From Desulfotignum sp. (GTDB lineage Bacteria; Desulfobacterota; Desulfobacteria; Desulfobacterales; Desulfobacteraceae): a DNA stretch of 64,000 nt. The position numbers and the translations under genes were made by a program. The notes under the pieces are model-generated. The model was not told the origin of the DNA. It worked only from the letters and a program-made list of their open reading frames with translations, and did no database searches. This document shows positions 48,703 to 51,211 of this stretch, one piece after another; positions within the stretch are counted from its first letter, which is position 1; each line of letters opens with the position of its first letter. The stretch covers positions 1-64,000 of the forward strand of contig JAABUD010000034.1 of the NCBI GenBank assembly GCA_011389555.1, read 5' to 3'.

Positions 48703-49350
48703 CTATCCTCGACGGATGGGTACAATGGTGATCTCAACCCGGCGGTTCATGGCATGGTCAGAGGATATGGGGCGTGATTCTCCATATCCCACTGCATTGA
48801 TCCGCCGGTCCAGCACTCCGTTGCGGATCAGTTCGTTTTTAACGGCCAGGGCTCTTCTTTCCGAAAGGCGCTGGTTGTATTCTTCAGAACCCCTGGTATC
48901 GGTGTGTCCGCCCACTTCGATGATGGTCTGGGGATATTTGATCATGACATCGGAGATCCGCCGCAATTCTGCCTGGGCACCGGGCAGCAATGTGCTTTTA
49001 TCATACTCAAAAAAAGCTTCTCCTTTGAACGTGGCCCGCAAAATATCCTGTTCTCTGGAGATGCTGGCGGATTCTGATGTGGCGATGGCGCTGCGCAGAT
49101 CCTGCTCCTGATTGTCCATGTAACGCCCGATCTGGTTACCTGCCAGGCCGCCCAATGCAGCGCCGATCCCGGCCCCGATCAGTGTGGCTTCCGTGTCTCC
49201 GCCGATCACCTGCCCGAGGGCGGCACCGACTCCTGCACCGACCCCTGCACCGACAGCAGTCCCCTGTCCTTGTTGCTTTTGCATGGTGGTGCAGGAAAAA
49301 AGGCTTACAAGCACGGCGATACACATAACGGCAAGAAAATTGTTTTTCAT
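48703..49350 (-). CDS. OmpA-family lipoprotein with glycine-zipper segment
   Basis: 215 aa. The signal peptide ends in a lipobox (LVSLFSC), so it is probably lipid-anchored. Next is a glycine-zipper region (GTAVGAGVGAGVGAALGQVI, then GAGIGAALGGLAGNQIG, about 30-75) and a C-terminal OmpA peptidoglycan-binding domain with EVGGHTDTRGSEEYNQRLSE and INAVGYGESRPI. It likely tethers the outer membrane to peptidoglycan. Converges on the aroF-pheA fusion with 14 bp between stops. Confidence 0.92.
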   Translation of the reverse strand: MKNNFLAVMCIAVLVSLFSCTTMQKQQGQGTAVGAGVGAGVGAALGQVIGGDTEATLIGAGIGAALGGLAGNQIGRYMDNQEQDLRSAIATSESASISREQDILRATFKGEAFFEYDKSTLLPGAQAELRRISDVMIKYPQTIIEVGGHTDTRGSEEYNQRLSERRALAVKNELIRNGVLDRRINAVGYGESRPISSDHAMNRRVEITIVPIRRG

Positions 49351-49608
49351 TTTTTGGATCTCCTGATTGCGATGTTTGAAATACGTTTCTTTTACATACA
49401 GCTAAAATTCAATGATGTTGAAAAAACAAAGATTCATATCCAATTTTCATCTGTGACATTGAATTTTTGTGCATTTTCTTAACCGAGTAAGATAATCACT
49501 GCTTTGAAAATGTACACCTTGTCATAAATTTTTCTGGGTCAATCCAAGATACAGCGGCCATGCTTTGATTGACGCGATATCGTTCAATACGGCTTTTTCA
49601 AGTGACCC

Positions 49609-49799
49609 GTGCCGGGGGGTTCCTGTGGGTTTCACCCTCTGCCGCGTTTGACATGGAGTAGGGCATGGCTGCGCTGAACGGCAAAAACTGCGGGCAGGTG
49701 TGTCCTCAAACAATTTGCCGTTCTTACCGCTTCGCCATGCCCAACTCCATGTAGCAAACGCGTCAGAATGGGATTCAACCCACAGGAACCCCCCGGCAC
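49609..49799. repeat. 191-bp nested inverted-repeat element
   Basis: Five nested stems: 49609-49631/49777-49799 (23 bp perfect, GTGCCGGGGGGTTCC...), CGCGTTTG/CAAACGCG (49643-49650/49755-49762), ACATGGAGT/ACTCCATGT (49651-49659/49744-49752), GGGCATGG/CCATGCCC (49661-49668/49735-49742) and GAACGGCAAA/TTTGCCGTTC (49676-49685/49714-49723). It can fold into one long hairpin on either strand, typical of a MITE or a structured RNA. No coding capacity. Confidence 0.85.
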
Positions 49800-49938
49800 T
49801 AGTCGTTGATGGCAGCGGTGAACCGGAACGAAGTCTGGATACCTCCCTGAATAATGGCCATGCCCAGAGTTGCACAACAAATATATAAACGGGAGATGGA
49901 ATGAGCGGAGTGGAGCCGGGTATGATTTGTACAGCGGA

Positions 49939-50023
49939 GCCCCTGGTGGGGGTGCCTTGCTGACGGACTGTCGGAGCCACCCCGTGGATTCCAGGCCGGC
50001 AGCAAGGTACCCCCACCAGGGGC
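49939..50023. repeat. 85-bp inverted-repeat element
   Basis: Arms 49939-49962 and 50000-50023 (24 bp, one mismatch, GCCCCTGGTGGGGGT core) enclose a 37-nt centre. It lies 139 bp from the 191-bp element and could be a second small mobile or structural element. Confidence 0.8.
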
Positions 50024-50107: not shown

Positions 50108-51160
50108 TTATCCTGCATCTCCGGGTGTGTTGAAATCCCGGATGAAGATCTCCCAGAATGCCACGAACAATGCCGCTAACAGGGGCCCCATGACAAATCC
50201 GTTGATGCCGAACAAAACAAATCCGCCCAGGGTGGACAGCAGCACCAGGTAATCCGGCAGTTTGGTATCTCTGCCCACCAGGATGGGCCGCAGAAAATTG
50301 TCCACCAGGCCGATGACCCCGGCCCCGAACCCGATGAGCACCAGGCCCTGTATCCAGCTGCCTGTTGCAAACAGATAGATGGCCACCGGACCCCAGATCA
50401 GGCCGGCCCCCACCATGGGGATCAAAGACAGCAGGGTCATGATCACCCCCCACAGCAGCGGGGCCGGAATACCCAGTATCCAGAAAATAATCCCCCCCAG
50501 GCTGCCCTGAACCACGGCCACCACCAGGTTGCCTTTGACCGTAGCCCGGGTGACTTCGGCAAATTTGGCGAACAACAGGCGTTCCCGTTCATCTCCCAGG
50601 GGCAGGGCCCGGGCCAGCTGGGCCACCAGCCCGGAGCCGTCCCGGAGCGTGAAAAAGGTCAGGTACAGCATCAATCCCAGGCTGACAACCCATTGCACCG
50701 CATCCTGGCCGAACTGCATTGCGTTCTGGGCAATGAACCGGCTGGCGGCAATGGCGGCATTGGATAATTGCGCTTTGAACTGGGTCAGATCCAGATTGAG
50801 CCGGTCCATCAGTGCCTGGATGGCCGGAAAGGCCTGGCGGATCTGCTCGATGCGCTGTCCGATATCGATGTCACCGCTTTGCAGGCGCTGGTACAGGGCC
50901 GCCCCTTCCTGGAAAAAAGAGACCAGCACAAACAGGGTTGGAATGACACCGATGGTGATGACCACCACCAGTGAGGACAATGCCGCCAGAGTGGGCCGGT
51001 TGTTCCACAATTGTAAAAAACGCTGCTGCAAAGGAAAAAACAGCAGCCCCACCACACAGGCCCAGAACACGGCACCGAAAAATGGTTTGAGCAGAAAAAA
51101 AAACAGTGCGGTCACCAGGACCAGCATGGCCAGAAATGATCCTTGTTCCAGTTTTTTCAT
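50108..51160 (-). CDS. AI-2E family (PerM-like) membrane transporter
   Basis: 350 aa from the ATG at 51160; a TTG one codon upstream is equivalent. About eight transmembrane helices and the family pattern: LLFFPLQQRFLQ, a long amphipathic stretch in the middle, then GVIMTLLSLIPMVGAGLIWG, LVDNFLRPILVGRDTKLPDY and NGFVMGPLLAALF. This is the AI-2E/UPF0118 family, whose members export autoinducer-2 or exchange Na+/H+; the substrate is open. Confidence 0.9.
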   Translation of the reverse strand: MKKLEQGSFLAMLVLVTALFFFLLKPFFGAVFWACVVGLLFFPLQQRFLQLWNNRPTLAALSSLVVVITIGVIPTLFVLVSFFQEGAALYQRLQSGDIDIGQRIEQIRQAFPAIQALMDRLNLDLTQFKAQLSNAAIAASRFIAQNAMQFGQDAVQWVVSLGLMLYLTFFTLRDGSGLVAQLARALPLGDERERLLFAKFAEVTRATVKGNLVVAVVQGSLGGIIFWILGIPAPLLWGVIMTLLSLIPMVGAGLIWGPVAIYLFATGSWIQGLVLIGFGAGVIGLVDNFLRPILVGRDTKLPDYLVLLSTLGGFVLFGINGFVMGPLLAALFVAFWEIFIRDFNTPGDAG

Positions 51161-51211
51161 CAAAAAAATTGTCCCATCCTGATTGATTGAGGTTCGTTTA
51201 CTGTGTAGACG

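Follow-up and report, generated by a model that had tools for sequence, protein, structure and literature searches.

Closest described systems

Prokaryotic MITEs are the nearest described counterpart of the element reported here, a hairpin at 49609-49799 of the window (the whole 64,000-nucleotide stretch of Desulfotignum sp. DNA that was analysed). In the available parts of two papers (PMC10969869, PMC6382973), MITEs share with the element a short, non-coding, intergenic sequence, many copies and inverted ends, and with its order-wide relatives the short target duplications. The element differs from them in being one conserved fold throughout, in the arm letters not being conserved and in showing no duplications in Desulfotignum. 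REP and REPIN sequences with their RAYT transposases are likewise palindromic, intergenic and dispersed, but they measure 20-50 nt in the accessible text of PMC12306157 and PMC3733652, against ~206 nt here, and the element has neither a GTAG or CGTC tag on the + strand nor any linkage to a RAYT. The attC site of integrons is also a long imperfect hairpin; the element differs in having no attC core sites, and no array was seen. MRSC-65-2 is presented in the part of PMC11109978 consulted as a mobile or repeat candidate with a UYCCGG repeat and >20,000 examples in diverse phyla. Like the element, it has one long covarying stem, reaches dozens of copies per genome and is taken as selfish. In a comparison made by description only, the difference lies in the repeat, since TYCCGG occurs 8 times in total on both strands of 72 copies of the element.

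According to the available part of PMC2702500, exact repeats with a length of at least 50 bp number 2357 in the HRM2 genome. The element is not described in those parts of PMC2702500, PMC11109978 and PMC12306157. No prior description was found in the literature searched, which does not prove its absence from print. At the gathering cut-off, Rfam gave no match in the window and none in 20 loci with relatives; on the locus itself, with E up to 10, every match fell below the gathering score.

Fold and limits of the element

The earlier note placed a 191-bp, five-stem hairpin with perfect 23-bp outer arms at 49609-49799. These coordinates are exact, with the arms at 49609-49631 and 49777-49799. 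A single long multi-stem hairpin is indeed formed, but the consensus of 41 copies has six helices instead of five. The length of 191 bp is that of the hairpin itself, whereas the conserved unit also includes GACCC (49604-49608) and TAGTCGTTGA (49800-49809), so that the whole unit with both edges comes to ~206 bp. The features of the locus are as follows.

49604..49608, + strand: 5' edge of the conserved unit, GACCC, invariant in the 41 aligned copies
49609..49631, + strand: 5' outer arm, helix 1, pairing perfectly with 49777-49799 over 23 bp
49635..49640, + strand: helix 2, 5' side (CCC-TCT), adjoining the conserved TCACCC and pairing with 49765-49772
49647..49664, + strand: helix 3, 5' side, pairing with 49739-49758
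49668..49674, + strand: helix 4, 5' side, pairing with 49729-49736
49677..49685, + strand: helix 5, 5' side, the stem below the apical core, pairing with 49714-49722
49685..49707, + strand: apical core AAACTGCGGGCARRTRTGTCCTC with helix 6, its pattern recurring in related genomes
49739..49758, + strand: helix 3, 3' side, from the copy alignment and covariation
49765..49776, + strand: conserved motif AGAATGGGATTC with the 3' side of helix 2; AGAATGGG invariant in the 41 aligned copies
49777..49799, + strand: 3' outer arm, helix 1, pairing with the 5' arm at 49609-49631
49800..49809, + strand: conserved 3' edge TAGTCGTTGA, consensus TRGYCGYTGA, from the 41-copy alignment
49939..50023, + strand: hp2, a second repeated hairpin of 85 nt, 3' of the element, with 32-nt arms that are 91% complementary
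48703-49350, - strand: OmpA family gene, flanking neighbour
50108-51163, - strand: AI-2E transporter family gene, flanking neighbour

The minimum free energy of the hairpin is -133.7 kcal/mol as + strand RNA (z -14.6), -133.8 kcal/mol as - strand RNA (z -15.1) and -78.9 kcal/mol as DNA (49604-49809, z -13.3). None of 200 shuffles folded as well in any of the three modes. To the left of GACCC the sequence varies from copy to copy, and past the 3' edge at 49809 conservation weakens. In another comparison, 2 of 40 copies (L070, L082) read ACCC at the 5' edge, without the G.

The absence of coding capacity stands as claimed: the sole open reading frames that cross the hairpin are mechanical and lie on the opposite strand, and the hairpin has no gene of its own. 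The flanks, which had been called ordinary, are so with respect to the two genes, but hp2 had been overlooked. In 16/72 full copies it follows the element on the 3' side at a distance of 38-121 bp, oriented alike, and the 300 bp on the 5' side are free of it in all 72; it is present also without the element. Similarity to hp2 at two Y1_Tnp loci is short and coding-like.

Conservation of the fold in Desulfotignum

The alignment of 41 full copies spans 211 columns, and all six helices are kept. Paired letters fill 97.3% of the cells, compared to 90.7% in shuffles; 24/62 pairs are changed on both sides in some copy (10.2 in shuffles), and the covariation score is 0.167 (0.050 in shuffles). For each of these three measures, 0/500 shuffles reached the observed value, with the reservation that the shuffles ignore kinship. 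When the partners were slid against each other, pairing fell to 34-45%.

The changes are not spread evenly. Double changes affect 14/19 consensus pairs of helix 1, and the outer arms thus keep pairing while their letters vary among copies. In helix 3 they affect 7/17 pairs; in helix 5 they affect 3/8 within the genus and 8/9 across genera (alignment A2). Helices 2 and 4 have zero double changes, with 99.2% and 96.6% of their cells paired. The loop motifs TCACCC and AGAATGGGATTC and the apical core are highly conserved. Wobble counts in the outer stem favour the - strand (34 A.C cells vs 8 G.U); those in the inner helices favour the + strand (71 G.U vs 10), with 64 of the 71 coming from two pairs. 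As a strand indicator the wobble counts are thus undecided, and they do not tell RNA from single-stranded DNA.

Copies in the genome and the genus

A DNA search of the own genome returned 32 rows, which reduce to 25 distinct places because 7 rows repeat a place as its reverse-complement match. A contig end cuts through six of the 25, so that halves may count twice and the true number is ~22 to 25. By pattern, the core has 23 matches in this genome, the most of any in the genus. The earlier note advised a search for further copies and would have given up its reading had related genomes held only one and no transcript appeared; copies were found in 13/13 genus genomes searched, own included. In named records the core was found in 89 stretches, and the 80 listed belong mostly to metagenome assemblies of Desulfotignum and Desulfobacula. 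One core record, a contig of 3.5 kb (L084), is titled Marinimicrobia, perhaps through mis-binning. At four loci (L074, L081, L099, L131) the match stops near the apex, at model column 111, and the contig runs out ~66 nt later; the copy numbers are thus probably too low.

The loci examined comprise 127 distinct places, of which 72 are full copies; these are not independent, since orthologous copies are included. None of the 72 overlaps a called gene (script calls). For the 58 copies with genes on both sides, the neighbours are co-directional in 32 cases, divergent in 17 and convergent in 9. The lack of a fixed orientation, together with the lack of overlap, argues against a terminator or a 5' leader. 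Two variant forms were observed. Most of the interior is absent from a short form at C160 (L031). In some species, the first ~33 nt of the element are repeated ~75-100 bp upstream of an intact copy, as seen when L061 and L276 (G009, G001) were compared with L066 and L272 (G002).

Evidence for movement

The window copy and two others of its own genome (L009, L010) are 97-98% identical, but their flanks part ways after some tens of bases; in a subset of copies the similarity extends a few tens of bases past each edge of the unit. One intergenic site is occupied by the element in G002 and G010 and by hp2 in G005 and G009. In G012 the matched flanks of this site are separated by 45 bp, and both repeats are missing; in G001 the flanks are ~23 kb apart and the site is uninformative. 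At another site (L267), three species retain a 3' remnant, which indicates loss and not gain, and provides no pre-insertion site. No clean pre-insertion site was found for the Desulfotignum copies. The window's own locus is rearranged in relatives and unusable as an empty site, and a cross-locus comparison for empty sites yielded mainly positions shared by species. Since many positions are common to species (flank identity roughly 83-100%), many copies are old.

The earlier note proposed a check for target-site duplications. Among 56 non-redundant Desulfotignum copies there are none, and no offset is enriched; duplications do appear in order-wide relatives, as described below. The 25 largest clusters of neighbouring genes, from 156 sites, contain no shared mobile gene and read as ordinary host families. 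The core has no match in viral contigs, and there was no match in the plasmid and phage collections.

That this is a mobile or dispersed structured element, as the earlier note suspected, is well supported by the many copies, the sharp ends, the presence and absence between species and the covariation.

Relatives across the order

Other genera carry hairpins of ~200 nt with different outer stems and the same apical core. In Desulfobacula the type is ACCCGTTCCGG...CACTGG, a related type occurs in other Desulfobacteraceae records, and a third was found in G065, G070 and G085. The third type has an extra conserved 5' block, for example GGCCATGTCGGCCTGCCGACACAACGAATAATGAAAATGG, in G070 and G085 (L203-L212, L223-L225); a similar sequence stands just 3' of some copies, as if tandem units were possible. 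Six representatives, including the window copy, fold at z -6.4 to -14.7 (60 shuffles each).

With at most two mismatches, the core 23-mer is present in 37/86 family genomes and in 34/389 genomes of an order sample, all of the own family. The 49/86 family genomes that the pattern does not match include some in which a covariance model finds the core. This model, R1, covers the stretch 49668-49736, was built from 45 sequences and was run within the order only. At E <=0.01 (E-values are rough) it has matches in 124/389 genomes and 47/150 genera of the order. Of the 124 genomes, 84 lie in other families, 20 of those families having matches at E <=1e-6. At E <=1e-4, 18 other-family genomes, picked as already matching, have 3 to 74 matches each. 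Many matches in the relatives with up to 74 in one genome are of equal score. Many in the richest genome sit at contig ends, so matches may exceed copies.

Across genera, the 45-sequence core has 89 double-changed cells vs 25.0 in shuffles. Its covariation measures beat 500/500 shuffles, save the number of pair types, which 73/500 shuffles reached; these shuffles, too, ignore kinship. The other-family relatives have 52 double-changed cells vs 13.1, in an alignment fitted to the model.

The order-wide relatives are also long hairpins, with AACTCGGGC-loop-GCCCTCAAACAG at the centre. Their ends are GATGGNNTCGTAAAAAG and its inverse in several genomes; in G346 they are different. We examined 69 loci for target duplications and could score the 12 copies in which both ends were placed by patterns. 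An exact duplication of 6 or 7 bp flanks 9 of these 12. With chance re-pairing, 2.4 of the 12 were duplicated on average and at most 7 (2000 runs), a level that reflects A/T-rich targets. Four further copies (L339, L350, L365, L366) appear duplicated by eye.

Search for a transposase with the same ends

The earlier note also proposed looking for a transposase bounded by the ends of the element. In ~379,000 distinct bases of G221 (388,861 fetched), no end pair encloses an intact one. About 190 bp separate a 57-nt end piece (L403:8226-8282) from the end of a frame that resembles DDE_Tnp_1; the match is weak (E 2.6e-4, 21.2 bits, cut-off 23) and only one end is present, so we regard this as a lead rather than an identification. 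Another end piece (L396:14230-14291) has no adjoining transposase by reading of its open reading frames. Among the long end pairs of G221, one encloses host-like genes, another lies in L404, and one joins a full copy to a 57-nt end piece across broken transposase-like frames.

G221 also contains short pairs of ends, spaced 136-140 bp, in which the core has no exact match (L391:3350-3503, L402:15264-15422); the one in L402 has 83% identity to part of the element, in reverse. In viral contigs the end motif occurs in 9 stretches, with no core and no transposon pair. Two of the viral contigs (L384, L385) carry a different short element that lacks the core; its end GATGGCTTCGTAAAAAGTC recurs ~125 bp away as an imperfect inverted copy, and several small elements may have this type of end in common.

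Alternative explanations

The element could be a plain MITE, that is, an internally deleted insertion sequence whose arms are terminal inverted repeats bound by a transposase, with the hairpin a by-product and the interior neutral. It is short, non-coding and multicopy, and its perfect 23-bp arms form terminal inverted repeats. The order-wide relatives fit, with GATGGNNTCGTAAAAAG ends, 6-7-bp duplications and as many as 74 matches, many of equal score, in a single genome, and the one-ended lead in G221 points the same way. For these relatives the earlier note's MITE proposal is supported. For the own lineage it is not established: the arm letters vary with pairing kept, target duplications are missing, the core and inner loops are highly conserved instead of neutral, and the search of ~379,000 distinct bases of G221 found no intact transposase between ends and a second end piece without a neighbouring one. 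On balance we consider a plain MITE somewhat unlikely. Another candidate is a REPIN-like unit with a RAYT (Y1) transposase as its mover. Such a unit would also be a long intergenic hairpin in many copies, and Y1_Tnp proteins, many of RAYT size, occur in 12/13 genus genomes. Yet the own genome (93.66% complete), despite having the most core copies of the genus, has no Y1_Tnp (PF01797) match, and it is the exception among 32 family genomes searched, 31 of which have Y1_Tnp, carriers and pattern-negative genomes alike. No cognate RAYT flanked by the repeat was seen: the hairpin is at 0/24 Y1_Tnp loci even when E is relaxed to 10 (20 of the loci have frames of 225-341 aa and were taken with ~1.2 kb on each side; 4 are shorter). 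Nor does the 5' foot carry the tag: on the + strand neither GTAG nor CGTC occurs within the first 12 nt in any of the 72 copies, and on the other strand CGTC does in 3/72. A RAYT is thus disfavoured as the mover, and we give a REPIN-like origin little credence. The earlier note's further suggestion of a large attC-like site, or integron recombination site, draws on the long imperfect hairpin with its conserved internal features. It was rejected on the core sites: 0/72 copies have RYYYAAC and GTTRRRY (R'' and R') in the outer 35 nt of the two ends, on either strand. The copies also lie apart, with no cassette array seen, and this identity is practically discounted.

Two other explanations address the fold itself. 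Covariation and invariant loops, together with some positions kept across species, would suit an RNA with a regulatory or structural function, present as dispersed paralogues, whose mobility is incidental. Against such an RNA stand several observations, namely no consistent position or orientation to genes, varying occupancy of one site, sharp ends within differing flanks, and 49/86 family genomes without a pattern match, some of which the model finds; we judge it improbable. The covariation could also be mutational, a product of quasi-palindrome correction and not of selection. In favour, the element is quasi-palindromic, and template switching is an established way for one arm to be copied into the other. 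Correction of this kind should erase internal loops and bulges, yet TCACCC, AGAATGGGATTC and the apical core are conserved, and the stems below the core co-vary between genera. A mutational origin is therefore most unlikely.

Proposed nature of the element and its significance

The explanation that we favour, and hold with good confidence, is a non-coding, non-autonomous, MITE-like palindromic element of ~206 bp that is mobilised in trans, one member of a family found across the order and having a folded core under selection. Movement in trans has the best support among the readings of its mechanism. We file the element under palindromic MITE-like repeats, and not as a MITE, because a target duplication is missing in its own lineage.

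Copies of the element would owe their movement to an enzyme that acts in trans. Across the wider family, the mover is probably a transposase reading GATGGNNTCGTAAAAAG-type ends, and the relatives point to one that makes 6-7-bp duplications. In the Desulfotignum lineage, the arms keep their pairing but not their letters, which makes end-reading uncertain there and a folded strand the likely substrate. The enzyme would there recognise the core and the folded strand, as RNA or as single-stranded DNA, and not the arm sequence. The fold would be retained since the element needs it for spreading or for being tolerated. A bolder proposal is that the folded core itself is the mobility handle, the outer stems and even the terminal ends being swapped between lineages, and that an enzyme acting in trans reads the fold and not a sequence at the ends. 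This would define a new class of mobile structured nucleic acid; we consider it unlikely at present.

This repeat family reaches 74 matches in a genome, extends over an order of sulfate reducers and is absent from Rfam; it would merit annotation, and its repeats also break assemblies. Because the core stays constant while stems and ends change, the family offers a clear test of what marks a mobile hairpin for recognition.
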